In this document: positions 15,913 through 33,200 of the stretch, piece by piece
How the letters are laid out: the number at the start of each line of letters is the position of its first letter
Position numbering within the stretch: position 1 is the first letter of the stretch
Origin: Rufibacter tibetensis
Lineage (GTDB): Bacteria; Bacteroidota; Bacteroidia; Cytophagales; Hymenobacteraceae
Assembly: GCF_001310085.1 (NCBI RefSeq)
Contig: NZ_CP012643.1
Location: 310,001-374,000 of the forward strand
DNA length: 64,000 nt
Direction: 5' to 3'
Program-made: the position numbers and the translations under genes
The notes under the pieces: model-generated
Database searches by the model: none
Told to the model about the DNA's origin: nothing
The model's input: the letters and a program-made list of their open reading frames with translations, nothing else

Positions 15913-16013
15913 ATAGTATTTAGCCAGGCAGACGGAGGAATCAGATACTACCTCCCTATAACGATTGACTACCCTCATATTCATTTTAAGATGCTGTACA
16001 GGCAAAGCGCTTC

Positions 16014-18716
16014 TTATTTCTTTGGTTTGTCTGCGGAGTTCCACAATTCGTTTTGGGCTGGTATTTGATCCCCTACTAATTCCAATAACTGAATGGCATT
16101 TAAGCACCATTGTGCGATGTTGTTAGTGGAGACGCCGGGCACTTCTTCCAGTGGTTTCACCGCCTGCACCCCATTAATCAGCTTTGGATCAAATTGCTCA
16201 GCAGTTCTCGGGTGTAAGAACTCGGCCCAGGCACGTTTGGCCAGTTCCGGGTTCTGTTTCATTTTGGAGGCGTAGGCAGGCAATCGGGCAAAGTGTGGAC
16301 CGGGAGAACCAAGGGTGGCGCGTTTGCCCAAGGCTTTTTCTATGGTTTCTTCCGAAGCCCCATATAGTTCGCTGTACTGGAGCCAGAGTCTGTTCCAGGT
16401 TTTGTCCTGCAGAAGGTCCGTTAGCTCAAAAGCTACTTCAGGACCACCCATGAGTACAGTTAAATGCGCAGAACCAATGGCGTCATTGCTGAGCATGTGC
16501 ATTTTCTGTGTGGCAGGATCATACCCAAAAGCCCCTTGGTTGCCGGAAAAGAATCCATAGGGCATTTTGGCGAAGCTATTCACCCCAGCCATGATCTTGT
16601 CGCGCCAACGTTTGTCGCCGGTGCGCTCCCATTCGGTCATCCAATTGCCCACCAACGCCAGCCAATCTGGCCCGATGCGGGAGTGCGTGGGGTATTGGCT
16701 TTTGGGTAGAATCAGGCGAAGCGGGTCTACTTCCACCAAGGCTTTGTCGGCGGTTTGCGCTACTTCTCGCATCATGTCACCGGTACGTTCGTCAGTGGTG
16801 AGATAGTAATAGAACCGGCGGTAAGGCGCCTGGCTTTCGCGCACTTCTTTGGAGCCATCGCCCCAGTGCCGCACGTTGTGGCGAGAACCTAAGCCGGCCA
16901 TTCTCCCGATGTGGTAGACATCCACCTCGCTCGTGTGCCGGGTCATGGCTTCGGCCATTTTGAAGATATCGGCGCGGCCGGTACGCAGGAAACTGTACCA
17001 CAACCACATGTCCGGGGCAAGTTCGGTGTTGGCCCAGGCAAAGCCACCTATGTCATAGCGCCAGGTATGCCGCACCGGATCATAGGCGTGCATGACATCG
17101 CCGTAGTTCCAGAAGCCGTACCAGTTGCGCTGGTCTATTTCTTTTTGGTAGAAAGTAATGGCTTTGTCCAGTTGCTCCTCTATCCAACGCTTACCGGAAG
17201 TGGAACGGTCTGGCAAACTCCACACCCCGAAGGTGTTCACCGAATGCAGGTATTCTGGCGTAGTTACCAGCAAAGGCGTTTGGCTGCTGATGTTTGCCAG
17301 GCTGCTCAACTCTTCATTGGACGGTACATTCGCGCTGGCAAAAAGGGTCAGCTCACTGGTGCGGGCAATTCCGTATGGCGTGCTGAATCCTTCCTGCACG
17401 TCTTCATAGGTAGCCTCCAGGCCGTGGGCGAGGGTGTCATAGTGCCGCATGTCCATGGCCTCGGCGTACGGCGACCAAAGCCAGACTTTCAATTCCGCCA
17501 TACTTTTTGCCGCATACCGCACTTCCAACGCAGCTGGGTACGACTGCCAGAAATCTTTCAACCCAATGGCTAAGCCGCCTTGTACATCCCCAACAAAGGC
17601 CAACCCGGTAGCTCTTTTCCCGGCAATGGCATCTAACCAAGTGCTTTTCGTATTGGTCCTCTTCTGAATATTGAAGCCATCGGCGTTGTTCTGCATCAGT
17701 TTGTAGTCGTTCCAGATAGGGAAATCCTGGATAAGCTTCTGTTCGGGCGCGGCAAACTCCTCCTGGTTTGCAATGCGTTTGCCGGCCACCTGGTCTGCAA
17801 ACACATTTTTCCCTTGATAGTTCACCGGACGTCTGCCCACCAGCGGTTTCACCGGCTCGGCCCAAATGCCAGGTCCTTCCCCTGAGAAGCGCACATGCCG
17901 GTTGTGCATCTGCTCCCGCATGGGCACCGAGAAAACCACCGCCAATCCTTTGATAAAGTCCTGCTGATCGTTGCCGTCATAGATGAGGGTGTTCACGATG
18001 CGCACCGCGTTTGAACCCGCATAGAAGTACAAACGGGTACTGAACGGAAGCCACGTGCGTTGCCCTTTTTCCGCCTGCAGTTTTCCTTCTACCCGCACCA
18101 CCGCCCTTACGGGTCCGGTTTGCTCTACGGTGACTTTCTCTACTTTGCTCAAATACCGGTCTTTGGTAGGCGATTCGTGCGCTTCTCTATCGGGGCCATT
18201 CTGCAGCACACATTCTAACCGGCCCCGGCTTCCTACCATTCGGCCTTCGGTAACTAAGGAGTCCAGCAGAAAACTGCCGTTTTTAGGCACAACACATTGA
18301 AGGTTTCCGGTATGGATGCGGATGCTTTTGCCCGTTTCTTTCAACTGAAGTTTCTCTTGCTCTCTGGGGGCTTGTGCCTTACCCAGATTTAGTTTCAAGC
18401 CATTGTTTTCTGGTCCGGCCACCGTGGCAAAACCAGTCCACTTCAGAGAGCCATCAGGCCAATACGCCATGGACCAGGCCTGTAAGGGAAGTACCTTTCC
18501 GGCAGCATTCGTCAGGTAAAACTGCTGTCCCTTCTTCACTGTTCCCTTAGGCCAGGGCACGCCCCAACTTACCCCGGTAGCCCCATGAATGGTTTGGTTA
18601 TGCAGCCACTTCAGGTCTACTGGTTGCGCCTTTCCTTTTTGGGCCAAACCTGGAAAAACAACGCCAAAACAAAAGCTGAAACAAAGGAGCAGGAAGTGGA
18701 TACGTGACTTTTCCAT
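16014..18716 (-). CDS. Exo-rhamnogalacturonan lyase-like protein, PL26 family
   Basis: 900 residues after ATG 18716 with a Sec signal (FGVVFPGLAQ). The central (alpha/alpha)-barrel part has NWYGFWNYGDVMHAYDPVRHTW, YDIGGFAWANTELAPDMWLW and RTGRADIFKMAEAMTRHTSEVD, which match my memory of the PL26 / PcRGLX three-domain exo-RG lyases; the N-terminal beta-domain opens with TGVSWGVPWPKGTV and PLQAWSMAYWPDGSLKW. PL26 removes unsaturated disaccharides from RG-I ends, complementing the PL11 endolyase. The gene lies between a terminator (18825-18858) and the DUF6250-like gene. I found no copy of the PUL promoter motif in its 155-nt upstream gap, so it may depend on readthrough or a different promoter. 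Family call is good; exo mode is inference. Confidence 0.78.
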   Translation of the reverse strand: MEKSRIHFLLLCFSFCFGVVFPGLAQKGKAQPVDLKWLHNQTIHGATGVSWGVPWPKGTVKKGQQFYLTNAAGKVLPLQAWSMAYWPDGSLKWTGFATVAGPENNGLKLNLGKAQAPREQEKLQLKETGKSIRIHTGNLQCVVPKNGSFLLDSLVTEGRMVGSRGRLECVLQNGPDREAHESPTKDRYLSKVEKVTVEQTGPVRAVVRVEGKLQAEKGQRTWLPFSTRLYFYAGSNAVRIVNTLIYDGNDQQDFIKGLAVVFSVPMREQMHNRHVRFSGEGPGIWAEPVKPLVGRRPVNYQGKNVFADQVAGKRIANQEEFAAPEQKLIQDFPIWNDYKLMQNNADGFNIQKRTNTKSTWLDAIAGKRATGLAFVGDVQGGLAIGLKDFWQSYPAALEVRYAAKSMAELKVWLWSPYAEAMDMRHYDTLAHGLEATYEDVQEGFSTPYGIARTSELTLFASANVPSNEELSSLANISSQTPLLVTTPEYLHSVNTFGVWSLPDRSTSGKRWIEEQLDKAITFYQKEIDQRNWYGFWNYGDVMHAYDPVRHTWRYDIGGFAWANTELAPDMWLWYSFLRTGRADIFKMAEAMTRHTSEVDVYHIGRMAGLGSRHNVRHWGDGSKEVRESQAPYRRFYYYLTTDERTGDMMREVAQTADKALVEVDPLRLILPKSQYPTHSRIGPDWLALVGNWMTEWERTGDKRWRDKIMAGVNSFAKMPYGFFSGNQGAFGYDPATQKMHMLSNDAIGSAHLTVLMGGPEVAFELTDLLQDKTWNRLWLQYSELYGASEETIEKALGKRATLGSPGPHFARLPAYASKMKQNPELAKRAWAEFLHPRTAEQFDPKLINGVQAVKPLEEVPGVSTNNIAQWCLNAIQLLELVGDQIPAQNELWNSADKPKK

Positions 18717-18824: not shown

Positions 18825-18858
18825 TTTCGGGCCTGCTTTTGTAAAAACAGGCCCGAAA
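18825..18858 (-). terminator. Terminator after GH106 copy 2
   Basis: TTTCGGGCCTG (18825-18835) pairs with CAGGCCCGAAA (18848-18858), with T4/A4 pairing inside. Reading leftward the stem is followed by CTTTTTAC. It separates the sulfatase-to-GH106 operon from the PL26-like gene. Confidence 0.78.
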
Positions 18859-18871
18859 TAAAATGCTTTTT

Positions 18872-21733
18872 TTATAGAGAACTGGAGACGTTCTTAGCGG
18901 TAGTGCTATATGGAGTTAAGGTCACCGGCCCGATCAACCCAGAGGGCATTGGTTTCCAAACCGATGCGTCAAAAGGCTTGTAGTCGATGTTCACGAAGTT
19001 GATCTCGTGGTAATTACGCCATTGTATTTTCTGCTGGTCCATGTTCCGGATGCGGTTGGCCATCAGGTTGGCAACCTCCACTTTTAGGGTGTTTTTACCA
19101 GGTTTCAAGTACTGCCCTACTCTTGTCTGGAAAGGGATCCCATAAAGCGTACCTACCTCCTGACCATTAATCCAAACCTTGGCGCTTTCGCTTACTTTCC
19201 CCAAATCCAGCACATATTCATCTGCTTTTTTAGAAGGTACGTCAAAGGTGATGGTGTACTCTCCGGTGCCGGAAAAAGCTTCGGCTTTTTTGTCTGCCAG
19301 TTCGGTCCAGGATTTCAGTTGAGTGAGTTTCTGAGCAATTGGCAGATCAGGACCGCCCTGGGTGAAGGCAAGGTTCCAGGTGCCTTTTACTTCCAGCGGC
19401 GTACCGGCATTGTCCAGGTATTGCCATGCCAACACTTCAGGCGTTTGGTTTGTGGTTGCCTTCAGGATAAGCGCTTCCCCGGATTTCATCTGCACCCGCA
19501 CATTGGTTTTGCCATTGGTAACGGAAGAGGCAGCCAGTCCGGCATTGCCGTTTTGCGGATCCATCAGGACGACCGACTGGGCAGCAAGGTTCAACGGAAT
19601 GGTGGTGTCAATGGTTTTAGGCGTGTGGTTCACCAGGAAGTAGTACTTACCAGTGCCGATGTTCCGGCGGGTAAATTTCAGCCCGGTATCGGTGAGTGAT
19701 TCGCGCTCAATGTTTTTGAAGGCAAGGGCCTTCTGGATGTCTGCAGAAAGAAGGATTTCACCGCTGCCGGCTTTCATTTGCTTGATGCCATTTGCGGCAT
19801 CAGTGAAGGTGAGCGACTGCGTGAGTTGTTTCAGTTTCTGTCTTCTGCCGTTCAGGTCGTGTAAGCCGGGCACATCTGCCGGCAATTGCTCCATGATCAC
19901 GGTAGCGCCCTGGTTGGCCAATTGAATGGCTTTTTCGAAGGTAGGCACGGCCATGTACTTGCTCTGGGGCAGCACCAACACTTTGTGCGCCGGAGCAGCC
20001 GAGGCGGTCATGATCTGGCCGTTGCTCACGCTGGATGCCTGCAGCATCTGGTCTGAGACAAAGTCAAGCGAGTAGCCCGCGTCCATCAGTTTCTTTGACT
20101 GCTTGTAGAACTGCGTTGGGTGCAGCCACTCGTCAATGTCGTGCACTTTGATCATCATTTCCATGCCTTCGGGTTTGCTCCATACGTCATGGATAGGCCA
20201 GTACACTAGCAGTTCATTGTCTGCCGTGCCCGACTGCAACACCGATTGCACGCGGGTGATGTATTGGTTAAAGCCGTTGAACTGCGGCCACAAGCTGTTG
20301 GCCGGGGTCATGTTCAAAGAAGCGTAAAACAGCCAACCTGGCCAAGCGACTTCTTCTGGCGAGTAGGTCACGCCGTGGTAAAACACATGGTTCACCCCAG
20401 ACAGGAAAACCTGCTCCACCTCGGGCTTCATTTGGGAATAAGACGTCTTGAAATGCTCCCCTAACCAAGTAAAAGTCTCACTGGACACCAGGTTTTTACC
20501 CGTTACGTGCGCCGCCGAAGAAGCAAACTTCAGCATGATAGGATCTGGGTCTACGTTGCGCACATCAGCACTGTCGCGGCGCAGGCCCGGGATGGGGAAA
20601 TAACTGGACCCGAAGGTTTCACACTCTGGTATATCCACGGCAGCGTACAAGTCCAACAGGTTGCCCGGTGAGCCGTGCGATTGGTTTTTGGTGAGGCTGT
20701 TGTGTTTGTGCGCCCAAGCGTTCCAGGGCTGATAGAAGTTCTCATAGAGCATTTCGCCCATGGTCTCGCGGTAATCAGATTTTACCCGGGCTACGGTCTC
20801 TGAGTGCTCTTTGCTTACCAGTTCCCGCAGGTAAGGCCGCAAATCATACCCTCGCCGCTTTTGGAAGGCCTCAAAAAAGCCCGCCGACCAATCTGCGCCG
20901 TACACTTCATAGCTATCGTTGTAAAATGCTCTTACGCCATGATTGCTGCCGTTGAAGGCTTGGGTAAAAGGAAGCAGATAAGCCTCTGTGGCCTCTTTAG
21001 ACAAGTGATCTAAGGTGTAGCCTACGCCACCGGGTGCCGCTCTTTTCACCATCTGGCGCGTCTTTCCATTAAATGCCGCATAAATCTCCCAGGTACCGGC
21101 CGGGGCTTTCCAGTTCAGCTTGCCATCGGCGGTAGTCTTGTCGGTTAGGTTCAGGATGGCGCCTTTAGGGCCATAGGCTATGACGGCCTGCAACACTGCT
21201 CCTACTTCCTTTTGTTTGGGGTCTTTTATCTCCAGCGTTTCGGTGAGGGTCTGGCCACCGTTTAGGGTGTACTTTTGCATAATCAGCCGCGAAGCCGCAT
21301 ACTCCGGTTTCACCTGCGGACCACCGAAAGGCCAGCCTGTTCCCTGCGTCAGGTCTACGCCCATGTTCAGACTGCCTGCTTTCTTCACGGTGAAATCCAG
21401 CATGCCCATCCATTTGGGAGACAGGAAATCTATGTACTTGCTTTCGTGTTCTTTGGCCCCGTAAATGGGCGCAATCTCCACACCCCCTATTCCAGCTTTC
21501 GCGTATTCGTCCAGTAGCCGGTTAATATTCTTTTCATCTACGGCGTTGCCCATCCACCACCAGCGGGTCCAGGGGCGGTTTTCTTTTTTCACCTCGGGCC
21601 ACAGGGCACTGCTTTGGGTCTGTTTTTCAGAAACTGCGCTGGAAACGGAATTGGAAGCTTGGGGCTGTCGGCAATTGGCCAGAATGGAGCCACACAGCAC
21701 AAGCGAGGCAAGGAATTTAAATTTATGCGTCAT
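18872..21733 (-). CDS. Alpha-L-rhamnosidase, GH106 family (copy 2), lipoprotein
   Basis: The longest frame starts with TTG at 21772; the ATG at 21733 gives a proper lipoprotein signal (MTHKFKFLASLVLCGSILANC), leaving 953 residues. GH106 motifs: RPWTRWWWMGNAVDEKNINR, GVEIAPIYGAKEHES, FLSPKWMGML, GVDLTQGTGWPFGGPQV, HVFYHGVTYSPEEVAWPGW and the C-terminal jelly-roll EYVLDLGKVSESAKVWINGQ. Being lipid-anchored, unlike copy 1 with its Sec signal, it probably acts in a different place or order on RG-I oligosaccharides. Last gene of an operon with sulfatase, formylglycine-generating enzyme and L-rhamnose mutarotase, so its product, L-rhamnose, links the whole operon. Confidence 0.93.
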   Translation of the reverse strand: MTHKFKFLASLVLCGSILANCRQPQASNSVSSAVSEKQTQSSALWPEVKKENRPWTRWWWMGNAVDEKNINRLLDEYAKAGIGGVEIAPIYGAKEHESKYIDFLSPKWMGMLDFTVKKAGSLNMGVDLTQGTGWPFGGPQVKPEYAASRLIMQKYTLNGGQTLTETLEIKDPKQKEVGAVLQAVIAYGPKGAILNLTDKTTADGKLNWKAPAGTWEIYAAFNGKTRQMVKRAAPGGVGYTLDHLSKEATEAYLLPFTQAFNGSNHGVRAFYNDSYEVYGADWSAGFFEAFQKRRGYDLRPYLRELVSKEHSETVARVKSDYRETMGEMLYENFYQPWNAWAHKHNSLTKNQSHGSPGNLLDLYAAVDIPECETFGSSYFPIPGLRRDSADVRNVDPDPIMLKFASSAAHVTGKNLVSSETFTWLGEHFKTSYSQMKPEVEQVFLSGVNHVFYHGVTYSPEEVAWPGWLFYASLNMTPANSLWPQFNGFNQYITRVQSVLQSGTADNELLVYWPIHDVWSKPEGMEMMIKVHDIDEWLHPTQFYKQSKKLMDAGYSLDFVSDQMLQASSVSNGQIMTASAAPAHKVLVLPQSKYMAVPTFEKAIQLANQGATVIMEQLPADVPGLHDLNGRRQKLKQLTQSLTFTDAANGIKQMKAGSGEILLSADIQKALAFKNIERESLTDTGLKFTRRNIGTGKYYFLVNHTPKTIDTTIPLNLAAQSVVLMDPQNGNAGLAASSVTNGKTNVRVQMKSGEALILKATTNQTPEVLAWQYLDNAGTPLEVKGTWNLAFTQGGPDLPIAQKLTQLKSWTELADKKAEAFSGTGEYTITFDVPSKKADEYVLDLGKVSESAKVWINGQEVGTLYGIPFQTRVGQYLKPGKNTLKVEVANLMANRIRNMDQQKIQWRNYHEINFVNIDYKPFDASVWKPMPSGLIGPVTLTPYSTTAKNVSSSL

Positions 21734-21801
21734 GAAGAAAAATCTGGGTGAGTTGGGAAAAGGGTGCGTCAATCAAGCTGCTAGTTTACTCTAGGTGGAG
21801 G

Positions 21802-22113
21802 TTACGCCATGTAGAACACCTCTTTTAGAGGAACCGAGACGGGTGAATTGTCGGGGTTGGTTTCCATGATGTCGGCCATGTAAGCCCACCACTTCTGCAC
21901 AATCTCAGTAGTGCCTAAATCCTGGGAAGAAGCGCCCTGCTGTTTCTGCACGGCAAACAAGGTGTTGGTTTCTGCATCCAGAAAAATGGAATAGTCGCTT
22001 ACGCCAGCTTCTTTCAATAACTGCGAGAGCTCCGGCCAGATGGCATCATGGCGCTTTTGATATTCGGCTTCGCAACCAGGTTTTAGTTTCATTTTAAAAG
22101 CAAATCGCTGCAT
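21802..22113 (-). CDS. rhaM: L-rhamnose mutarotase
   Basis: Interconverts alpha- and beta-L-rhamnopyranose in the cytoplasm so that rhamnose isomerase receives its substrate. From the ATG at 22113 the product has 103 residues, the family size, and the catalytic His of [12 protein letters not shown] falls at position 22, as in the E. coli enzyme; [28 protein letters not shown] is the conserved C-terminus. A longer frame begins at 22143 but adds an unconserved leader. It is the only clearly cytoplasmic enzyme of the PUL and sits 68 nt before GH106 copy 2, tying rhamnose release to its catabolism. No rhaA, rhaB or rhaD is present in the window. Confidence 0.93.
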
Positions 22114-22152
22114 ATCTTTATCTGTTCTTTCTATTGATTTCAAGTTCAGGAA

Positions 22153-22977
22153 TTAGATGGACTTGGCGCACCTAAAACCGGTATGGAAGAGCGCGGTCTC
22201 GCGGGAAGAGGACGTACGCCCATTGATCTGGTAGTTGTGGCAAAACGTGGAATCGCACATGAACGAACCGCCTTTCAGAAGCATCACGTCGGGCATCTGC
22301 GGTTGCCCCTCCTCCATGAAAGCCTCCGATGTCCATTGCCACACGTTCCCGCCCATATCCGTCAGGCCGTGCCCCGTTTTCCCGAAGATTCCCACCGGAG
22401 CGGTATAGGGATAACCATCCTCTCCGGTGTTGTTTCCCGGGAAGCTCCCCTGCCACACGTTGGATTTGAACTGGTTATTTTCTACCAGCTTGTTTCCCCA
22501 GCTGTAGCGGGTGTTGTTTTTGCCGTTGCTGCGGGCTGCGTACTCCCACTCATACTCGGTGGGCAGGCGTTTGCCGGCCCATTTGCAGTACGCCACGGCG
22601 TCATTCCAGCTCACCTGCGTTACGGGGTGGTTGTCCTCAGCTTTGGCGGTTCCTTTGCCTAAAGGATACTCCCAATTCGCGCCGGCTACCAAGGTCCAGG
22701 TCTTTTTCTCCGGATCAAAAACCCCGGCATCCCCGAACTTCTCTGCGTCTGTTTTATAGCCGGTTTTCTGAATAAAGGTCCTAAACTCGGCTACAGTTAC
22801 CGGATGCTGGTCCAGCAGAAATCCTTCTAGTTCTACCTCCTGCTGGTCCTCTCCTACTGTTCTCAGGAAAGACCCTTCCGGAATGTACTGCATGCCAGCG
22901 GGCACGTGTTCCGGTGCCTGCTCTTTGCAAGCAGCCATGACCATTAGAAACCCGATGAGAAGGAGAAATTGCTTCAT
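22153..22977 (-). CDS. Formylglycine-generating enzyme (sulfatase activator), lipoprotein
   Basis: 274 residues of the FGE-sulfatase/SUMF1 family. Unlike the many inactive homologues, it keeps the active cysteine pair in GGSFMCDSTFCHNYQINGR (Cys241 and Cys246), which binds copper and oxidises the sulfatase cysteine to formylglycine. Other family motifs: HPVTVAEFRTFIQKTGY, HPVTQVSWNDAVAYCKWAGKRLPTEYEWEYA, DMGGNVWQWTSE and HTGFRCA. The N-terminus is a lipoprotein signal (MVMAAC, Cys17), so the enzyme works outside the cytoplasm, probably on the periplasmic face of a membrane. Its start overlaps the sulfatase stop by 4 nt (ATGA), pointing to translational coupling with its likely only client. 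Confidence 0.9.
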   Translation of the reverse strand: MKQFLLLIGFLMVMAACKEQAPEHVPAGMQYIPEGSFLRTVGEDQQEVELEGFLLDQHPVTVAEFRTFIQKTGYKTDAEKFGDAGVFDPEKKTWTLVAGANWEYPLGKGTAKAEDNHPVTQVSWNDAVAYCKWAGKRLPTEYEWEYAARSNGKNNTRYSWGNKLVENNQFKSNVWQGSFPGNNTGEDGYPYTAPVGIFGKTGHGLTDMGGNVWQWTSEAFMEEGQPQMPDVMLLKGGSFMCDSTFCHNYQINGRTSSSRETALFHTGFRCAKSI

Positions 22978-24587
22978 TTGCTTTTTTTCTGCTTATCATA
23001 CTCCAACAACTGCGCAAACGGCACCACATTGGCGCGTGTAGCCCAGGCGTTGTAAAGGGCTTCCATTTCCTGCACCTTTTTCGGATTCTGAGCACTAAGG
23101 TCGTTTAACTCTGACCTGTCTGTTTTAATGTTGTAGAGCGCCCACTTATTCTCCGGGAACATAGACACTAGCTTCCAGTCGCCCTGCCGCACGGCGCGGT
23201 TGCCTTCGTGCTCAAAGAAGATGGCGTCGTGCCCCTGCCATTTCTGCCCTTTAAACAAAGGCGCCAGGCTGATGCCTTCCATGGGTTTGATGGTTTTCCC
23301 CTGATAGGTTTTAGGATAAGCCACTCCGGCTAAATCCAGCGTAGTGGCCATCAAATCAATGATGTGGGCCGGCTGATGGTTGATGCTGCCGGGCTTGATA
23401 GTATTGGGAAAATAGGCGATAAACGGCGTGGAAATGCCGCCTTCGTGCTCCCAGCGCTTGAACTTCCGGAAAGGCGTGTTGCTCAGGTTGGCCCCTTCGT
23501 ACTCGTATGCCGTGAAAGAAGCAGGATCACTGGCCGGCATCTTACTGGCGGCCAGAATTTCAGGCGTGAAGGCTGGACCGTCAATGTCTTCGTAACTGCC
23601 GCCGTTATCTGACAGGAACATGATGATGGTATTTTTGTCTTCACCGGTTTCTTTCAGTTTCTGGCGCAGGCGTCCTATGTTCTGGTCCATTCTGTCTACC
23701 ATGGCCGCGTACACTGCCATTTTCTCCTCCCATATTTTCCTTTCCGCAGCAGGCACAGATTCCCAGGCGGGCACTTCTTCGTCTCTGGGGGATAGCTTGG
23801 CCGTCTGGGGCAGAATGCCCAAGGCCTTCATGCGTTTGAACCGCTCCTCGCGCAGCACATCCCAGCCTTTGCTGTACTTACCGCGGTATTTGGCAATGTC
23901 TGTTTCCAGGGCGTGTAGCGGCCAATGCGGGGCGGTATAGGCCAGGTACAGAAAGAAAGGCTTGGCTTTTTCTTTGCGCTCGTCTATGAATTTTAAAGCA
24001 AAATCGGTGTAGGCGTTGGTGGCGTAGAAGTCTTTGCCGGGCGTGTAAGCCGCATCGTCCAGACCGTAGGTGAGCTTCTGATTGGGCCGGTAAGGTCGGT
24101 TCCCGAAGTAGCTATTGGCCCCGTCCAGCAACCCGAAGTACCGGTCAAAGCCCTGCTTTACCGGCCAGTGTTCTTTGCGGTCGTTCAGGTGCCACTTGCC
24201 GGTCATCAGGGTGTTGTAACCGCCTTCTTTCAGGGCTTCGGCAATGGTCACGCACTCCTCGTTCAGCATGCCGCGGTAAGACGGGTGCTCGCGCTCGTTC
24301 ACCATGTGTCCCACGCCGGCCTGGTGCGGATAAACGCCCGTGAGCAAAGAAGCCCGGGTGGGGCAGCACCGGGAGGCGTTGTAGAACTGCGTCATTTTAA
24401 GGCCGCCTTTGGCCAGGGCATCTAACTGCGGCGTCTGGATCTCAGACCCAAAGCTACCCAGGTCAGAATAGCCCATGTCATCGGCTAAGATGATGATGAT
24501 GTTGGGCTGCACCTTTTGCGGCGCCAGCCCTAGCAAAAAACCTGAAGCAAGCACCAGGGAAAGGCTAAGGAAACGTTGCTTGATCAT
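22974..24587 (-). CDS. Sulfatase (type I, formylglycine-dependent)
   Basis: 537 residues from the ATG at 24587 (a longer frame from 24620 has a poor leader). Signal peptide ends near LLGLAPQ. Type I sulfatase features: metal-binding ILADDMGYSDLGSFGSE (Asp36, Asp37), the activation motif CCPTRAS with Cys74 as the residue to become formylglycine (C-x-P-x-R), TGKWHL, and FLSDNGGSYEDIDG. It is exported and matured by the adjacent lipoprotein FGE, with which it overlaps. Its place in front of rhaM and a rhamnosidase suggests a sulfated rhamnose- or uronate-containing glycan, such as an algal or unusual pectic side chain; the sulfatase subfamily and substrate cannot be read from motifs alone. Confidence 0.9.
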   Translation of the reverse strand: MIKQRFLSLSLVLASGFLLGLAPQKVQPNIIIILADDMGYSDLGSFGSEIQTPQLDALAKGGLKMTQFYNASRCCPTRASLLTGVYPHQAGVGHMVNEREHPSYRGMLNEECVTIAEALKEGGYNTLMTGKWHLNDRKEHWPVKQGFDRYFGLLDGANSYFGNRPYRPNQKLTYGLDDAAYTPGKDFYATNAYTDFALKFIDERKEKAKPFFLYLAYTAPHWPLHALETDIAKYRGKYSKGWDVLREERFKRMKALGILPQTAKLSPRDEEVPAWESVPAAERKIWEEKMAVYAAMVDRMDQNIGRLRQKLKETGEDKNTIIMFLSDNGGSYEDIDGPAFTPEILAASKMPASDPASFTAYEYEGANLSNTPFRKFKRWEHEGGISTPFIAYFPNTIKPGSINHQPAHIIDLMATTLDLAGVAYPKTYQGKTIKPMEGISLAPLFKGQKWQGHDAIFFEHEGNRAVRQGDWKLVSMFPENKWALYNIKTDRSELNDLSAQNPKKVQEMEALYNAWATRANVVPFAQLLEYDKQKKSK

Positions 24588-24653
24588 AAGAGGAAGCCTT
24601 GGGTTTAAAACAGAAAACACCTACCGGATGAGCTTTTAAAGTTTCATCCATGC

Positions 24654-24730: not shown

Positions 24731-27700
24731 CTATTTTCTTACCAGGGTCACGCCCATGAGGCCAATCACTACGTCGTTTGCCAGGGTTTTCACTTCCAAA
24801 GACTTCAGCTTTTTGCTTGGGTCTAACGGAAGATCCAGCACGGTAGCAGCGCCACCAGGGATATAGCTGTTGTAAGCAAAGCCTTTGATGTCTGAATAGT
24901 TGAAGTTCTGGATCACGTCACCGGTTTTCAGGTGGACCCTGATGGGCTTTGGTTTATTTACCGTGAATGAGTACTCGTTGATGTAGTAGTCCTGCTCAAT
25001 GGGCCACCAGGTTTCCGGGTTCCGGAGCGTCAGTTTTTCCTGCGAGTTGTCTGCATAGGTCACCACCACCTCTCCATTATCAAAGCGCGACTGCATGGGG
25101 TTGGTGGAGCCGGCCATTAGCAGGTAGGCATGTGAGGCGCTTCCAGTCAGGGGCACGGTGGCGGCATCTGGGTAATTGTCCCACTGACTGGTAAAGAGGA
25201 TGTTCTTGCTATTTCCCGGACCAGCTGTCTTAAACTGCAATCCGTTTGCTAAATGGAAAACGCCGTTTTCTCCGGCTTTGGCACGCAAGCCCGCGTCATC
25301 TATTTCTGCCGTCACCAATGGATAGCACCAGTTCCCGATGCCTTGCTTCGGTAGCTGCAGAGTAGCCGTAGCAGGCCGAGGCGAAAGGTACTCGTTCCGG
25401 AAGATCTGCGTGACTCTATCGTTGAAATGCGGAGTTAAGTCTACTACCTCTAACTTCTGCTTAGCAATTGACATAGACACTTCCCAATTCGTAAGTTCGC
25501 CCGTAGCAATGACTTTCCCCTTCGCTTCCATGCGCACCAGATTGGTGCCGGGTTGTAACTGCCCCACGGGAATTATTACCGGGGTGGAAGAGCCAAATGG
25601 AGCGACTGCCAATTTCTGTTTCTGAGTGAAATTGCCGGTGGAGATGGTAACTTCTTCACTGAACTCCGAGGCGGTGTTGTTCTGTAAAACCAACTGATTT
25701 TTGGCCGCTCCCGGTTTATGGATAACTACTAAATTAAAAGGCTCCCACACTTCAAAATCAATGGGTTGCCACCAGGTTAGCTGCCCCTGCTTGGCAAGCA
25801 CAAAGAAGGAATGGTGCCCTACCTCGCCGGCGACGCTCGCCTCTACCCGGTTGCCTTTAGGAGTAGAGCTTGCCAGAATCTGCTGCGGATCTCTGACTTC
25901 CAGGACCTGGGCTTTTCCTGCGTCCACCAAGAACCCTGCACCATTGGCCGCAACTGCAGCATGCTTCATTTCAGCTGGTTTGTCTCCTGCCCAGGTAATG
26001 CTTACTTCATATTTGTTGGCCAATGCTGGAAGAATCTCAATCTGCGGTTTTCCAACGTTTTCCAGAAAACTGGTCCAATTCACAGGCTTTCCATTCACCA
26101 ATACGGAAGCGACCCTGTCTTTCAAGGCGGCAGCTCTGAACTTTAGCTTTAACGGTTTCCCGAAGCGCGGCTCAATGGTATAGGTTTCCTTGTCTCCCTC
26201 TCTTTTAAAGGCATAAACCACATCAGGCGTTTCTATACTGGCGTGGTTCCAGTCTGCCGGTAAACCGGGACGCACCGTCAGTTCACCAGCCAACATATCG
26301 GGCAGAATCCCGAACATTCCTTCTACAACTGCTCTGGAGCTAATTCCAATGCCATCGGCAAAGTCGCGGTACAGTTCTCCCCGGTAATGGTCGTAGTGCG
26401 ACAACTGTTGAAAATTACCCGGACTGGAGCCCATGTACATGCTTTCTATGAGCACACTCCGCATCAGTTTGTTGGCCTCTTCTGTACGACCTGCCTGCCA
26501 ATACGCCAAAGCCGTATGCGCTACCTCTGCCAGTGCCACGTTATTCACCGACCACGTGTAAGGCATCCAATTGGAAGTGGTTAAGGTCACCAGCTCCTCT
26601 TTGGGCAAGTCTGAGTTCTTGATGGGAATGTGCGAAATTTGTGTGTCTACGTAGCGCAGCATTTGGTACGCCTGGAACGGGTCTGGCACTTCCGAGTCAA
26701 GGGTGTGGTACACGGTCCAGAGTCCGGCAGAAGTATGCAGCTTTTGCAATCCCAACAGGTCTTTGTATTCAGCGTACCAGCCTTGCTTTGGCATCCACAT
26801 GGTGGCCCCAATGGCCTTCTTTATCTTCTCTGCTTCTTGTTTATAAGGTTCAGAGTTCTTGCCCAGAAGGGCAGCTAACCTGGCTACGGTTTTGTTGGAA
26901 AAGTAATGGTACGCCGAGGAATGGGTGACGCCCCCGCCGCTGTATTGAACGGCATCGCTGGCCCAGAAACTGGCATAAGCATCATACAAACCATCATTAT
27001 CAGCGTCGAAATTCCGCTTCTCCCACGCCAAGTGTCGTTCAATGATGGGCCAGGCTTCCTGAATATAGGTCTTGTCACCCGTCCACAGAAAATGCCGAAG
27101 CATCTCATCAATGAACACCATGTTCATGTCATAGTGATGGGCCACCTTTTTAGGAGTGGGATTGCGGGAAATGTACCCGTTGGTGTACAAAGAAATTCCT
27201 ATTTCTTCTTTCTGCCTGGCCAGGTTTCTGGAGGAGTCTGGTACCACAGGTCCGCTGGCTGGCTCTGTCACCTGTGCTTCACTGTACCCCTTGAAATGGG
27301 TACGTGCTCTATCGTGCCAGCCCAGGGCATCGGCCACATAGGTTCCGCGCCAACCATTAAGCGGCATGCGCCAGGCTATGGCTCCGTGCATGTAACTTTT
27401 ACCATCCCAGATGGCATCAGCGGCAATACTCAAGGCTCCGCCTAAGGTATTCAGATAGGGGTCAGGGGTTACAATTTTCACCTGCCCCGCTATCTTCTGC
27501 CGCTGCTCATCTGCTTTCTGAAAAACCTTTGGCAATTCCTGGTAGGTCTTTGCTTTTGCGCTCAAGTGATTCTGCAGCCCAAAGTACACCTTCTGCTTTC
27601 CCTGAATTTTCTGTCTGCCTACCACCACTGGTAAGTCTGAGGCGTTGGATTGCAACAATGCTTTGGGAGAGCTTTGCTGATGGGCATCGCCTATCTTGAG

Positions 27701-28444
27701 CACAGAACCCGGAGCAACTACCCCAAAAATCTGTGAGCCTTTCTCCTGCACCTTCTGTTTAGAAGTGTCACCTCTCAGTTTACCGGTTTCAAAACCCAGG
27801 AGAAAGGAATTGCTTTTTATTTCGAATACATTTCCCTTGCAATGGTCTGGGTGCAGGTAAAATCCTTCTTCCGGGTCGGCGCCAATGTCTCCATCCCGGG
27901 ACGGTTTATGACCACTTGCTCCGCCGTAGACCCAGATGAGTTCAAAGGGCTGATCAGTTGTTGACTCCAGAGACATCACCAACCCATCCTCGGCCGCCAT
28001 GGCCAGTACCTGCAGGTTCAACTGCCCCTCTCCTAACAACGGATCTTTGATTTCGTACCGCATAGTACCCGGACTGTAGATGGCCTTAATACGCGCTGCA
28101 TCGGTGAGCCATTTGTTTCCCGCGTCTGTTGCGATTCCTAGTTTCAGGTTACCGCCTTTGCCAGGCATGTACATTAAGAACTCCGGCAAGTCTCCTGTTT
28201 CTACTCGGAACGCTGTTCCGGTTCCATACAAAGCTCGGTTAAAGCGCTTCGTACCATTGATGATGCAGAAATCTGTTCCTTCAGGCTTATAGCGGAGCGG
28301 ACGCTCTTGGTTCAGTTTATCCGGTGCGGAGATTTCAGCTACATTTTGCTTAGGGGCGGTATTGGTTGGCGCCATAGAAACATTCTGTGACTGGCAGGCG
28401 ACCAGCACCATCAGAGCAAATGCACCAATTCGTTTATCAAGCAT
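24731..28444 (-). CDS. Large six-hairpin glycosidase-like lipoprotein (DUF4450-like)
   Basis: 1237 residues from ATG 28444 (the TTG at 28453 is less likely), with a lipobox LVAC (Cys17). The N-terminal ~300 residues (RYKPEGTDFCIINGTKRFNRALYGTGTAFRVETGDLPEF) resemble the DUF4450 domain of Bacteroidota PUL proteins. The centre (about 330-760) is an (alpha/alpha)6 barrel: AADAIWDGKSYMHGAIAWRMPLNGWRGTYVADALGWHDRA, MVFIDEMLRHFLWTGDKTYI, DADNDGLYDAYASFWASDAV, followed by C-terminal beta-sandwich domains. The architecture is that of GH78-like or related inverting enzymes. A role on RG-I side chains is likely, but no CAZy family can be assigned from the sequence by eye. It forms its own unit with the promoter at 28529-28573. 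Confidence 0.65.
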   Translation of the reverse strand: MLDKRIGAFALMVLVACQSQNVSMAPTNTAPKQNVAEISAPDKLNQERPLRYKPEGTDFCIINGTKRFNRALYGTGTAFRVETGDLPEFLMYMPGKGGNLKLGIATDAGNKWLTDAARIKAIYSPGTMRYEIKDPLLGEGQLNLQVLAMAAEDGLVMSLESTTDQPFELIWVYGGASGHKPSRDGDIGADPEEGFYLHPDHCKGNVFEIKSNSFLLGFETGKLRGDTSKQKVQEKGSQIFGVVAPGSVLKIGDAHQQSSPKALLQSNASDLPVVVGRQKIQGKQKVYFGLQNHLSAKAKTYQELPKVFQKADEQRQKIAGQVKIVTPDPYLNTLGGALSIAADAIWDGKSYMHGAIAWRMPLNGWRGTYVADALGWHDRARTHFKGYSEAQVTEPASGPVVPDSSRNLARQKEEIGISLYTNGYISRNPTPKKVAHHYDMNMVFIDEMLRHFLWTGDKTYIQEAWPIIERHLAWEKRNFDADNDGLYDAYASFWASDAVQYSGGGVTHSSAYHYFSNKTVARLAALLGKNSEPYKQEAEKIKKAIGATMWMPKQGWYAEYKDLLGLQKLHTSAGLWTVYHTLDSEVPDPFQAYQMLRYVDTQISHIPIKNSDLPKEELVTLTTSNWMPYTWSVNNVALAEVAHTALAYWQAGRTEEANKLMRSVLIESMYMGSSPGNFQQLSHYDHYRGELYRDFADGIGISSRAVVEGMFGILPDMLAGELTVRPGLPADWNHASIETPDVVYAFKREGDKETYTIEPRFGKPLKLKFRAAALKDRVASVLVNGKPVNWTSFLENVGKPQIEILPALANKYEVSITWAGDKPAEMKHAAVAANGAGFLVDAGKAQVLEVRDPQQILASSTPKGNRVEASVAGEVGHHSFFVLAKQGQLTWWQPIDFEVWEPFNLVVIHKPGAAKNQLVLQNNTASEFSEEVTISTGNFTQKQKLAVAPFGSSTPVIIPVGQLQPGTNLVRMEAKGKVIATGELTNWEVSMSIAKQKLEVVDLTPHFNDRVTQIFRNEYLSPRPATATLQLPKQGIGNWCYPLVTAEIDDAGLRAKAGENGVFHLANGLQFKTAGPGNSKNILFTSQWDNYPDAATVPLTGSASHAYLLMAGSTNPMQSRFDNGEVVVTYADNSQEKLTLRNPETWWPIEQDYYINEYSFTVNKPKPIRVHLKTGDVIQNFNYSDIKGFAYNSYIPGGAATVLDLPLDPSKKLKSLEVKTLANDVVIGLMGVTLVRK

Positions 28445-28528
28445 AGGTTTCAATTTTGTTCTTACAAAGGGCTGAGGTCACCTGCAGCGTACTTACCCCC
28501 CAGCGACACCATTTAACCTGCAACCTAT

Positions 28529-28736: not shown

Positions 28737-30239
28737 TTAATAACCAGGATTTTGCTCGTACAAACCTTCCCTTACGGTTAATTGCGTAAATGGAATTGGA
28801 TAGATAACAAAGTTAGGGTTGATGCTTTCAGCCATACGATTCAGCTCGTCCTCCTTGGGCAACCAGGTATTCATCACCTCTATTACTCTGCCAAAGCGCA
28901 CCAGATCATGCCACCGATGTCCTTCACCTGCAAACTCCAATCTTCTTTCTTCTAAGAGCATATTTAATGTTACACCTGTAATTGGCTGCAACCCTGCTCT
29001 AGCTCTTACTCTGTTCACTATTACATCAACGTCCTGCTGACTTCCTCCTGATCCACTTTTTAAAATAGCTTCGGCTTTCATGAGTAGTACATCTGTATAT
29101 CTGATCACCGGAAAGTTAATAGGCCAGTCAGTACGGTCAAGGCCAGGATCTCTCTCATCCAAAAACTTCCTGTAAAATGATCTGGTTTCTATGTTGCCAT
29201 TAACATCTCTGAAGCCACTTTGGATGGTAAAAGCTTTCCGCACATCACCGGGTTTATAAGCAGTCAGTAAATCAGTAGATATCTCCCTCATCTCCACGCC
29301 AGACTGCCCAGATGGGATACCAGGGATGGCATTAAAGTAGGCAGGAGGTCCCATGTAGCCAGGCAAAGTAGTTCCAAGGCCTAATCCACCTTTTCTAAAT
29401 TGAATATCAAAAACGATATCTGGGTTGTTCTCATTTGTATAAGAAAAGATACTGGCGTAATTACTTACCCAGGAGAACGGACCATTGTTAATTATATCAT
29501 TCAACAAAGTGAGCGCCTGCGAATATTCATTCACGTTTAAACCAGGTCCTTTTATACCATAGGTAGGTCCTGAGCGAGTTAAATGAACACGAGCCATTAA
29601 AGCTTTAGCAGCCCAGTTGGTAGCTCTCCCTCTGTCGGCAGCACTATAGGTGCCAGGCAAAAGTGTGATTGCTTTATTCAGGTCAGCCATGATCAAGGCA
29701 TACACCTCTTCCACAGAACTTCTGGGTATGTTTAGTGCTTCAGCAGGACTCACAACGGTTTGGTACAAAGGCACTCCTCCGAACCATCTTACTAAATCAA
29801 AATAGTAAAATGCTCTCAGGAATCTGGCTTCACCTTCTAACCTATTTCTTAAGGGCTCTTCAGGAACAGCAGCAGCATTGATTCTATCCAATACTGTGTT
29901 TGCCCTCATGATTCCATTGAAATTGTTGTTCCAAGCCTCCGCTACTAGTGTATTATTTTCCAGTGTAGTTGCAAAGTCATTCACAGGGTCCCACTCTCTT
30001 ACCCCGGTAGAGGAAGAACCATACACATTATCTGACCTCGTTTCAGAAAGGTCAAAAGTACGGTCTGGATAACGACGTAATTGAGCATAGATACCATTTA
30101 CTGCCTGCTGAAAGTCAGCAGCGTTTCGGTAGAAGTTCGCCGAACTAGCATCTGATAGTGGTGCTTGCTCCAACTTGTCTTCACAAGAAAGCAGGCCTGC
30201 CACCAACATAAAACTTATATATAAAGAAATCTTTTTCAT
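28737..30239 (-). CDS. susD: SusD/RagB family outer-membrane glycan-binding lipoprotein
   Basis: 500 residues from ATG 30239 (the open frame begins 3 nt earlier with GTG). Lipobox LLSC with Cys19. SusD hallmarks: EQAPLSDASSANFYRNAADFQQAVNGIYAQL at the mature N-terminus, NRLEGEARFLRAFYYFDLVRWFGGVPL, RATNWAAKALMARVHL, VIRYTDVLLMKAEAIL, and the C-terminal LLEERRLEFAGEGHRWHDLVRFGR. SusD proteins cap the SusC porin on the outer face and capture oligosaccharides. It follows susC by 24 nt and ends in a strong terminator. From the gene context its ligand is probably an RG-I oligosaccharide. Confidence 0.95.
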   Translation of the reverse strand: MKKISLYISFMLVAGLLSCEDKLEQAPLSDASSANFYRNAADFQQAVNGIYAQLRRYPDRTFDLSETRSDNVYGSSSTGVREWDPVNDFATTLENNTLVAEAWNNNFNGIMRANTVLDRINAAAVPEEPLRNRLEGEARFLRAFYYFDLVRWFGGVPLYQTVVSPAEALNIPRSSVEEVYALIMADLNKAITLLPGTYSAADRGRATNWAAKALMARVHLTRSGPTYGIKGPGLNVNEYSQALTLLNDIINNGPFSWVSNYASIFSYTNENNPDIVFDIQFRKGGLGLGTTLPGYMGPPAYFNAIPGIPSGQSGVEMREISTDLLTAYKPGDVRKAFTIQSGFRDVNGNIETRSFYRKFLDERDPGLDRTDWPINFPVIRYTDVLLMKAEAILKSGSGGSQQDVDVIVNRVRARAGLQPITGVTLNMLLEERRLEFAGEGHRWHDLVRFGRVIEVMNTWLPKEDELNRMAESINPNFVIYPIPFTQLTVREGLYEQNPGY

Positions 30240-30263
30240 CACAATTGTATTTTAAGCTAGCAA

Positions 30264-33200
30264 TTAGAACGAAACGTTCAACCCCATGGTCACAGATTTG
30301 GATAGTGGGAAAGCACCATAGTCATCGCCTCCTGTATTCACTGCTTCTGGATTGAATCCACCTTCATACTTATCTTTTCCGAACCAGTTTTCAGCACTTA
30401 CATACAGACGGGCACCTTGTATCAACTTCTTGTTAGTGATCAATCTACCCAAATCATATCCTAAGGTGATGTTTCTCACTCTCCAGTAGTCAGAAGAATA
30501 TAACCATGCGGTACTTTTCAGGAAGCCAAAGCTGGAATTGGCTTTTCCGCGCTCTCCTGCCCCAGGATTTTCAGGAGATCTCCACCGGTCACGGTTCAAG
30601 CCAAGCTGATTCTCTACTAAGCCCATTCCTGGTCTGTCTATGGCCCTACCAAAAAGTGAATATATTTCTCCACCCCATTGACCTTGAAGCAGTACTCTCA
30701 AGTCAAAGCCTTTGAAAGCGAAAGTATTGGTGAAGCCCCAGGTATAATCTGGGTTTGGTTTACCCACAACCACTCTGTCATCAGCTGTGATTACTCCATT
30801 TTTGTCAGCATCTACATATCTAGGATCACCAACGGTTTGTCTCCCATAAAGTGGTACTTTGTTGTCAATATCGGCTTGGGTTAGGATACCATCCTGCTGA
30901 ACAACATAAATGCTCCACAATGGTAACCCTACTTGCAGAATTCTATGAGGAGTATCAAAGTCGCCACCCTGAATAGGTGTATTGTTTGGACCTAATTGCC
31001 TTACTTCGTTTTTATTGTGGCTTAGGTTCAGGTTAGTTGTCCAAGAAAGTGGACCTTCCAAATTGCGTGTTGTCAACTCCAACTCCCATCCTTTGTTCAA
31101 TACTTCCCCAATGTTGGTAAGGGCAGTTCCAAATCCGGTGGCGGTAGGCACCGGTATATTAAGCAGCAGGTTAGAATTTACCTTGGTGTAGTAGTCAAAA
31201 GAAGTAAAAATACGGTTTTGGAACAGACCCATATCCAAGCCTATGTCAATGGTACTTGATTCTTCCCACCCTAAGTTAGGATTGGGAGCATTTGCAGGCA
31301 CCTGACCCGTAGCTATGTTACCACCGAAAGTATAATTGGAAAAATCAAGCAAGGCTATATGGCCATAGTTACCAATGGTATTGTTTCCTGAGATTCCCCA
31401 GCTACCTCTGAATTTTAAATCATTGATTACCGGTACATTATCAAAGAAGGCTTCTTCAGAAACTCTCCAGCCTACTGAGGCCGAAGGGAAGGTGCCCCAT
31501 TTTGTATCAGAACCAAATCTTGAAGAACCGTCACGACGAACAGTAAAACCAAACAGATAACGATCTGCAAAGTTGTATTGTAACCTACCAAAGTAAGAAA
31601 GCATAGTGTGCATGCTCTCTGACGTGAATGTACTTCCTACATTGATATTGTTAGCAGCATTTAGGGTAGTAATGTCATCTGTTCCAAACCCACCGGCACT
31701 TCTAATTTGATAGTTATTGAAATTACCCATATTATAAGAGAGACCCGCAAGTGCAGATACATTATGCTTTTCAGCAAATACTCTGTCATAAGATAAAGTA
31801 TTTTCATTCACGAAAGTTTGTCTGCGGTACCCGTTGAACGTTCCTGAAGCTAGTCTGTTTCCACGCTGTCCACTCACAAAAGAAGGTGTGAAGCTTTTAT
31901 TTGTTACATCTGCATGATCCAAGTTTATAGTGCTTCTAAACCTTAGATTTTTTAGAATACTGTACTCTCCAAACAAAGTAACCAAGGTTCTGAACGTCTT
32001 AGCTTCACCTATTGAATTCTCTACTACCCGTACAGGGCTATTAGGCGATACACCCCAAGTATAGGGCAAGAAATTACCAGTGTTCACATCTAATCCTACA
32101 GTATCTTCCTGTACAGGAGTAAACCCAACGGCTCTATGCAATGCCTGGTCTTTTCCTTCAACACCAGGGTCTGTAGCAATGGAGTATGATGGATTGAGGT
32201 TAACGCCAAATTTGAGTTTATCACTGGCCGTAACTTCTACATTTGCTCTACCTGAATACCTCTTATAACCAACTCCTATTGCAACACCTTCCTGATTTAG
32301 ATAATCTCCGGAAACAAAATACTTCACGGCATCTGTTCCACCCGATGCTGACAACTGATGGTTCTGCACAATTCCTTTTCTGAACATTTCATCCTGCCAG
32401 TCTATTATCTTCAAACCCGGATAACCTGGTTGTAACCAACGCTCATCTAACATCAAGCTGTTACTGAAACGTCCTAATATGGCTCTTCTTTGGGCTGTAG
32501 TCTGATTTGCTGTTCTACCGGCCCCGGAGTTTACCCAGTTAAAGTTGATCATCTCCACGGCTCTCTCAATCCACTCTTCCCCACTAAGCACATCTAACTT
32601 TTTAGCGGTCTCATTCCAACCTGCGTAGGTATTGTAATTGATTTTGGGTTTGCCTGATTTACCTTTTTTAGTGGTGATGATCACAACACCGTTGGCACCC
32701 CGTGAACCGTAAATTGCAGCTGCGGAAGCATCCTTCAGTACTTGTATGGACTCTATGTCATTCGGGTTGATGTTATCAAGTGGATTTCCCTGGGAGAAGC
32801 CTCCGGCTGAGTTTTGCGTTGATACATCCAAAGGGAAACCGTCAATCACATACAAAGGCTCATTGCCCGCAGTAATTGACCCAGATCCCCTAACCTGGAT
32901 GCTGAATCCTTTTCCAGGCAAACCACTTGTTTGCTGTACTCGTACCCCTGCCATTTGCCCCACTAATGCCTGGTCTACTCTGGCAATTGGGCGTTCTTCT
33001 ATTGCTTTGGCATCAAGTGTCGCAATAGCACCCGTTATATCTGCTCTTTTCTGAGTGCCATATCCAACTACTACCACCTCTTCCAGTGCTTTGGTATCAT
33101 CAGACAAGACGACATTGATGGTACCAGGACCGGTAAATGCTTTTTCCTGCGTGGTATAACCTATATAGGAGAAAATCAATACCCCTGATGCTTCTGGAAC

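Follow-up and report, generated by a model that had tools for sequence, protein, structure and literature searches.

A compact lipoprotein formylglycine-generating enzyme encoded with its probable sulfatase client in a rhamnogalacturonan utilization locus of Rufibacter tibetensis

The stretch of the Rufibacter tibetensis genome analysed here (hereafter the window) comprises 64,000 nucleotides, positions 310,001 to 374,000 of contig NZ_CP012643.1 in assembly GCF_001310085.1. On its reverse strand lies a run of four genes in which a formylglycine-generating enzyme (FGE) directly follows a sulfatase. The S1 (formylglycine) sulfatase, S1_4-like (see below), occupies 22974..24620 (PF00884, 220.6 bits) and precedes a compact lipoprotein FGE of 274 residues (22153..22977; PF03781, 195.7 bits against a cut-off of 23.3), the L-rhamnose mutarotase RhaM (21802..22143, with a probable start, from the DNA, at the ATG at 22113; PF05336, 113.5 bits) and a GH106 alpha-L-rhamnosidase with a lipoprotein-like N-terminus (18872..21772; PF17132, 253.8 bits). 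An initial annotation had described a 4-nt overlap of FGE and sulfatase, and this can be read in the DNA as ATGA (22974..22977), which holds both the stop codon of the sulfatase and the start codon of the FGE. The mutarotase and rhamnosidase that it placed in the same operon are likewise confirmed by their domain matches and shared strand, the gaps as listed being 9 nt between FGE and RhaM and 29 nt between RhaM and GH106. Against the BT4145-type model NF049897 the rhamnosidase scores 1115.9 bits, below the cut-off of 1300.

By profile, predicted fold and catalytic residues the 274-residue protein is a true FGE. Comparison by phmmer with the Thermomonospora curvata and human FGEs gives 199.5 and 197 bits, and the AlphaFold model (pLDDT 91) has a TM score of 0.82 to both (0.80-0.82 to solved FGEs). 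Alignment places the catalytic pair at C241-D-S-T-F-C246 (22240..22257, reverse strand), a CxxxxC arrangement after GGS, as expected from the earlier description of an active-type enzyme. An inactive lipoprotein like PorK or GldJ was considered and rejected, given that the cysteines are present and the NCBIfam equivalog cut-offs are missed: the protein scores 83.9 bits for GldK (cut-off 350) and 19.7 for GldJ (cut-off 458). The EgtB and SenA NCBIfam cut-offs are also not reached. Conservation of the pair was assessed in two sets not pre-selected for it. A survey of 200 genomes of the family Hymenobacteraceae (FGE at E 1e-25, S1 sulfatase at E 1e-15) shows it in the best frame of 65/65 loci. 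A draw of 395 Bacteroidota genomes, in which 70 of the 71 matches above 300 bits were read, including the window and G016 (G451, at 230 aa, and all matches of 300 bits or less being left out), shows it in 68/70. A second alignment was itself selected by the pair and is no test of its conservation. In the two remaining phylum loci, L350 and L367, high-scoring FGE homologues have C-x-x-C (GGSFQCEEC and GGSFICNEC) in place of CxxxxC, which may reflect a shorter active-site loop or a loss of activity.

The PF00884 match of the neighbouring open reading frame, together with its C-C-P-T-R motif at 24354..24368 (reverse strand), identifies an S1 sulfatase, as first annotated. The first Cys of the motif, residue 85 of the long reading frame, is the formylglycine precursor and is directly preceded by a conserved Arg84. 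The start is probably the ATG at 24587, as first proposed, since the orthologues open with a similar MIKQR/MIRKR/MKKR-type stretch, and the resulting N-terminus, MIKQRFLSLSLVLASGFLLGLAP, reads as a Sec-type signal. Orthologues at 66-91% identity are found in 15 further genomes of the family survey.

A scan of the 5.4-Mb genome (3 contigs, completeness 100) yields four PF03781 proteins. CxxxxC is confined to the window FGE; the remaining three are GldK (468 bits, cut-off 350), GldJ (603, cut-off 383) and EgtB (558, cut-off 360). The C-x-P-x-R motif was not found in the other six of the seven PF00884 matches. Maturation by an anaerobic sulfatase-maturating enzyme (anSME) was rejected: the best match to TIGR03942 in the genome has 26.4 bits against a cut-off of 349.45, and none of the 200 family genomes has a match over the cut-off, although E 1e-40 is reached in three. 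The pair is thus the only C-x-P-x-R sulfatase and the only CxxxxC FGE found in the genome, and no second known route to formylglycine emerges from the in silico search. As the only FGE found, the enzyme would therefore be the dedicated activator of a single client. Our reading, to which we assign a probability of about 0.7, is that the FGE is active, exported, lipid-anchored and periplasm-facing, and dedicated to the neighbouring sulfatase.

Within the family, FGE and S1 sulfatase tend to occur together: 61 genomes have an FGE and 67 a sulfatase, with both in 59, FGE only in 2, sulfatase only in 8 and neither in 131 (Fisher p = 3.6e-39, kinship ignored). Both FGE-only genomes have a PF00884 match beside the FGE, the C-x-P-x-R motif being confirmed only in G122. 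All 16 genomes with the sulfatase orthologue hold an FGE with the cysteine pair. In G032, G096 and the window genome the one FGE match is the compact FGE between sulfatase and RhaM; orthologue genomes without an FGE in the operon have one elsewhere or, in G016, G079 and G180, a long-form FGE adjacent to the sulfatase. The compact enzyme may serve further clients in trans in G032, since it is the only FGE match there, yet two additional exported CSPSR sulfatases are present.

Several genomes weigh against our reading. An exported C-type sulfatase with no FGE or anSME found occurs in G021 and, as a truncated gene, in G056. G110 has several sulfatases, three exported ones lying at a contig end, and again no FGE or anSME was found. 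In G038, G084, G090 and G112 the only sulfatase at E 1e-15 is a signal-less CAPTR protein, and no FGE was found. Because such C-type sulfatases are present where neither activator was found, another maturation route may exist in the family. In the eighth sulfatase-only genome, G100, the sulfatase gene lies in two frames. None of the eight yielded a CxxxxC FGE, either in the E 1e-25 search with the window FGE or on reading of the PF03781 loci, some weaker hits being left out. Two further protein types may be recorded here. Signal-less CAPTR[AS]MLLS sulfatases occur in the family at L143-L152 (G084, G090, G112 and others) and L173 (G038). Several relatives share an FGE-fold protein (L190, L192, L199; about 270 residues) that has a signal-like N-terminus and lacks CxxxxC (FCGAG...).

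The active site itself raises a further doubt. Tyr precedes the second Cys in 136 of the 146 FGEs having the cysteine pair; the window FGE has Phe245 at this position and falls, in a quick tree of 146 rows, into one clade (SH-aLRT 99) with those of G032, G096, G128, G151, G189, G091, G198 and L055, in which the position is Phe, Trp or Val. L116 independently lacks the Tyr, and 11 of the 68 phylum-draw FGEs, the window included, are without it. No source found makes this Tyr defining for FGE, though it is near-invariant, and nothing on its role was found in the literature searched. Since the clade lacks the usual Tyr, activity is not certain.

The protein might accordingly be an inactive scaffold of the PorK/GldK kind, or might modify something else, with the sulfatase matured by another system. 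Exported FGE-fold proteins without catalytic cysteines certainly exist, as accounts of PorK (PMC12421860) and OCTIN (PMC5915273) describe and as GldK and GldJ of this genome illustrate; C-x-x-C replaces the pair in L350 and L367, and the four genomes with a cytosolic C-type sulfatase and no FGE or anSME found would fit as well. Set against this are the cysteine pair, missing in PorK and kept in the window as in 65/65 family and 68/70 phylum loci, the strong co-occurrence in the family, and the position of sulfatase genes beside Tyr-less FGEs. Eighteen Tyr-less loci other than the window were compared (17 contigs; eight in the clade by tree, ten picked by motif only). Sixteen of them have a sulfatase at a distance of about 1 kb or less; in 15 it is within 200 nt of the frame ends, with overlapping frames in ten of these. 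L299 and L312 show no sulfatase within their short flanks; their FGE frame was missed by the first filter and found in a later scan. For comparison, the 65 family loci, seven of which are Tyr-less, have a same-strand sulfatase within 300 nt in 25 cases, or 37 by a looser count. We therefore consider a protein that does not mature the sulfatase very improbable. A strict co-adaptation of Tyr-less FGE and S1_4 sulfatase was also tried and rejected: Tyr-less FGEs are found beside CTPSR sulfatases with 27-30% identity to that of the window, and at other loci the S1_4 orthologues depend on long FGEs.

The FGE begins MKQFLLLIGFLMVMAACKEQ, a lipoprotein signal, and the lipobox of the earlier description is present as M-A-A-C with the cysteine at position 17 (22927..22938, reverse strand). 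The features of a signal peptidase II substrate, namely an n-region, a hydrophobic stretch and a lipobox Cys at about position 17, are seen in MKQFLLLIGFLMVMAAC and likewise in the G032 and G096 proteins. In Bacteroidota, surface lipoproteins are distinguished by acidic residues after the lipobox Cys. From that Cys onwards the window FGE has CKEQAPE, without the SusD-type acidic pattern. At positions +2..+6 the family FGE lipoproteins have a mean of 0.74 acidic residues (n = 50) against 2.71 for SusD (n = 14; p = 1e-8), and those of the phylum 0.81 (n = 42), as counted automatically with a few lipobox cysteines mis-picked. Because the SusD-like pattern is missing, the FGE more likely faces the periplasm than the cell surface, and a surface-exposed enzyme was rejected.

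Export is, on present sequences, the rule for the Bacteroidota FGEs examined. Of the 65 catalytic FGE frames in the family two are broken; a signal or anchor is seen in 59 of the 63 that can be read. In the phylum draw 66 of the 68 FGEs with the cysteine pair are exported or anchored, 58 by rule and 8 by eye, the two signal-less ones both being in G320. A weakness of these figures is that the calls come from a home-made hydrophobic-window rule and reading by eye rather than from SignalP; the proteins called exported by eye, among ten rule-negatives, are L301, L314, L315, L329, L339, L349, L357 and L361. A third set, the named loci, comprises the best 80 of at least 563 confirmed pattern matches to a Bacteroidota alignment and is not a random sample. 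Among these 80 the FGE is exported in 24/24 Bacteroidota and 7/8 Planctomycetota, in 0/9 Actinobacteria, 0/7 Firmicutes and 0/2 Spirochaetota, and by rule in 6/18 Proteobacteria, two of the latter being false on reading. Duplicates remain in the sets, L045 being the same as a G061 contig (Pontibacter) and L055 as a G404 contig. Prokaryotic FGE is described in one 2015 paper as residing in the cytosol (PMC4505483), and no description of an exported catalytic FGE was found in the literature searched, a body of work with subscription journals mostly outside it.

The N-termini of other FGEs deserve brief mention. Signal-less FGEs of several phyla carry a sulfatase-like CC-x-P-x-R or CC-x-x-x-R motif there (CCTPAR, CCAPRR, CCGPTR; L051, L054, L058, L066, L080, L081, L123 and others). 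By a loose pattern it is present in 18/35 non-exported and 8/45 exported FGEs of the best 80, and it resembles a substrate mimic or a copper site built into the enzyme. Long exported Bacteroidota FGEs (L045, L255, L296 and others) have client-like CHDGMPSRF, CSGSLPAR or CSSGMPAR shortly after the lipobox, a feature absent from the compact window FGE.

Does the location of an FGE match that of its neighbouring sulfatase? Among 63 pairs of FGE and nearest sulfatase (less than 4 kb apart) both partners are exported in 47 and neither in 14, a signal-less FGE accompanies an exported sulfatase in 2, and the reverse is not seen (Fisher p = 3e-12). This count follows hand changes: L255 and L296 were set to exported and L082 and L100 to not exported, and L239 and L278, whose frames are broken, were excluded together with L050, whose frame is odd. 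By rule alone the corresponding figures, in the same order, are 34/4/2/0 for the family (p = 1.6e-4) and 12/8/3/2 for the best 80 named loci of at least 563 (p = 0.005). The sulfatase column of the phylum draw was not used; it has 9 exported pairs, 4 and 2 mismatches and 2 pairs with neither exported, the mismatches being false calls or cut frames. In the four family genomes with signal-less FGEs (G001, G104, G122, G130) the nearest sulfatase, 0.2 to 4 kb off, is signal-less too.

The match has its own weak points. On the FGE tree export switches only twice; on average 1.6 contrasts agree and none oppose, giving a sign-test p of 0.5. Two readable pairs break the match, L069 from Actinobacteria and L096, whose sulfatase has a Tat-like signal. 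L239, L278 and L050 had also been scored as mismatches by rule before being dropped. In G130 (L271) the FGE is signal-less and an exported sulfatase lies 2.2 kb off on the opposite strand, with the signal-less one at 0.7 kb. The Tat-like signal of the L096 sulfatase, RRKILLG, would fit maturation in the cytoplasm followed by export of the folded protein. With two independent contrasts on the FGE tree, the topology match is suggestive rather than independent proof.

Pairs such as L069 and L096, in which a signal-less FGE accompanies an exported sulfatase, make maturation before export possible in principle. The window FGE might similarly be active in the cytoplasm on the nascent sulfatase, its lipobox serving only for later disposal or anchoring. 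We think this unlikely, as export holds for almost every Bacteroidota FGE examined and appears in two separate blocks of the tree, and as the signal-less FGEs of the family (L271, L292, L293, L294) lie nearest to a signal-less sulfatase, within the 0.2 to 4 kb given above. Cysteine oxidation outside the cytoplasm on an exported client, as the initial annotation had it, is well supported by comparison, given the lone FGE with its lone client, the near-universal export of Bacteroidota FGEs and the matched export (two contrasts); location and activity are themselves predictions.

The wider locus, on the same strand, begins with a SusC-like TonB-dependent transporter (30264..33467; PF00593/PF07715) and a SusD-like lipoprotein (28737..30242; PF14322/PF07980), followed by a DUF4450 protein (24731..28453; PF14614, 203.5 bits) that adjoins the sulfatase upstream. 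Beyond GH106 lie an exo-rhamnogalacturonan lyase-like (PcRGLX) protein (16014..18716; PF21346, 562.8 bits, and PF21345, 440 bits), presumably of PL26 type, and a family 11 rhamnogalacturonan lyase (PL11; 6892..8859; PF21348, 831.1 bits), both on the reverse strand; a GH2 gene (9114-12032) lies 11 kb off the sulfatase, and a second GH106 as well as GH28 and GH88/105 genes surround the operon. With SusC, SusD, PL11, the PL26-like protein, two GH106, GH2, GH28 and GH88/105, the locus is by gene content a rhamnogalacturonan-I polysaccharide utilization locus (PUL). As listed, a DUF6250 reading frame (15169-16110) overlaps the PL26-like one by 97 nt on the same strand, and its true start is probably later.

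Regarding transcription, all these genes share one strand, starting at SusC, but 110-143 nt separate the sulfatase from its upstream neighbour, enough room for a promoter. Co-transcription of the pair with GH106 under the PUL promoter, as first annotated, is an inference. Neither promoter scan of the 64 kb was informative, with 2 matches to the Bacteroidota pattern against 1.6 expected and 13 sigma-70 matches against 16.7 expected. A hairpin of 15 pairs with a T-rich tail 3' of GH106 (18825..18858, reverse strand; a consensus match only) may mark where the transcription unit ends, although such terminator-like sites are, taken together, not enriched in the window over shuffles (17 against 18.5). 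The gene arrangement itself is not chance, judging by its recurrence: in 16 loci, namely the window and the 15 orthologue loci (G028 ending at a contig edge), sulfatase, RhaM and GH106 are together in 8 (window, G032, G057, G114, G013, G096, G116, G024), with the FGE included in 3 (window, G032, G096). The DUF4450 protein adjoins the sulfatase in 3 of the 16 loci, the same three that have the compact FGE.

The nearest solved relatives of the sulfatase are 7all (361 bits), which we take to be Bacteroides thetaiotaomicron BT4683 with Arg72 and Glu335, and Pseudomonas aeruginosa AtsA/PAS (1hdh, 344 bits), the next group scoring 193 bits or less. Arg84 and Glu344 of the window sulfatase align with Arg and Glu of 7all at these presumed positions; Every orthologue has Arg84, and the split gene L142 is the only one without Glu344. 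At those columns both residues are absent from the cytosolic CAPTR sulfatases and, in the printed alignment, from AtsA. One source lists AtsA as S1_4 in SulfAtlas (PMC5066984). BT4683, also S1_4 and the one characterised carbohydrate-active member found, is described as a 3-O-sulfatase for galactose that uses one Glu and one Arg at O2, and as acting on colonic mucin (PMC10154612). By solved structures only, of which 1hdh alone is S1_4 on a cited source, the window sulfatase is nearest to S1_4.

The initial annotation suggested a sulfated, rhamnose-rich glycan, algal or unusual pectic, as an additional substrate. The rhamnogalacturonan-I PUL is in keeping with this, as are the eight loci in which sulfatase, RhaM and GH106 stand together, and a sulfatase acting on sulfated rhamnose, of an ulvan-like or unusual pectic glycan, is the main rival to one acting on sulfated galactose. 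The S1_4 affinity and the conserved Arg84 and Glu344 fit 3-O-sulfated galactose better, on the assumption that 7all is BT4683 and so numbered, and GH2 genes occur in the fetched stretch of 5/15 orthologue loci as well as in the window. Sulfated galactose thus seems at least as likely as sulfated rhamnose, and for these reasons we favour sulfated galactose on side chains of rhamnogalacturonan or of a glycan like that of arabinogalactan proteins, rating the exclusive action on rhamnose as doubtful. Nor is it safe to assume that land-plant glycans are always free of sulfate, given that one study reports sulfated arabinogalactan protein from land plants and a sulfatase needed for growth on that of wine (PMC8406133).

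Taken together, the pair is real and conserved, and the observations fit most likely with an envelope-located FGE that has its own client. Sequence or model shows the fold, the catalytic cysteines, the lipobox, the sulfatase motif, the gene order and the lack of known rivals in the genome, while the compartment, the Sec route, activity in the Tyr-less state and the substrate are inferred. In the mechanism proposed, the sulfatase would be made with an unmodified cysteine and threaded unfolded through Sec, and would encounter the FGE at the periplasmic face of the inner membrane. With copper and O2, the enzyme would there convert the first Cys of C-C-P-T-R to formylglycine before or during folding. 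The mature sulfatase would then remove sulfate, most likely the 3-O-sulfate of galactose and otherwise from rhamnose, which would let GH106 and the PUL lyases degrade the rhamnogalacturonan-like glycan, RhaM handling the released rhamnose.

An FGE with an S1 sulfatase is a known kind of system; what is new is the lineage of exported enzymes, its prevalence across the phylum and the clade without the Tyr. With the aerobic bacterial FGEs of Streptomyces coelicolor (2q17/6muj) and T. curvata (5nyy/6s07) the window FGE shares the fold (TM 0.80-0.82, ~37-41% identity), the copper-binding CxxxxC pair and the GGS...C loop. It differs from them in a shorter loop before WxxVxGAxW, in Phe for Tyr before the second Cys and in its lipobox, the aerobic enzyme being described as cytosolic (PMC4505483). 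The eukaryotic FGE of the endoplasmic reticulum (ER), SUMF1 (1y1e), has the same fold and catalytic pair and also acts outside the cytosol; according to the same account (PMC4505483) it is kept in the ER lumen by an N-terminal extension, whereas the window FGE would be held by a lipid anchor in the bacterial envelope. PorK, GldK and GldJ are, like the window FGE, exported FGE-fold lipoproteins of the same phylum, but PorK is without catalytic cysteines and reportedly builds the ring of the type IX secretion system (PMC12421860), and the GldK and GldJ cut-offs are missed by the window protein. Bacterial OCTIN combines an FGE domain with a signal sequence and was shown to reach the periplasm; unlike the window FGE it is described as lacking catalytic cysteines and forming oligomers (PMC5915273).

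We consider it somewhat probable that in FGE-bearing Bacteroidota all sulfatase maturation has moved out of the cytoplasm, by means of exported, membrane-anchored FGEs acting on Sec-translocated sulfatases in an ER-like manner, and that the Tyr-less clade is a dedicated, overlapping-pair version with an altered O2/copper site. Should this be true, where and when Cys-type sulfatases mature in Bacteroidota becomes directly testable, and FGE would have to obtain its copper in the periplasm. A cytosolic FGE has been reported to activate a Pedobacter sulfatase whose signal had been removed (PMC8746622); activating Bacteroidota sulfatases in this way would then be an artificial arrangement. The compact FGE, encoded with one client and with no other FGE found in the genome, offers a clean model of such maturation, and might serve as a tool for aldehyde tagging in compartments other than the cytosol.

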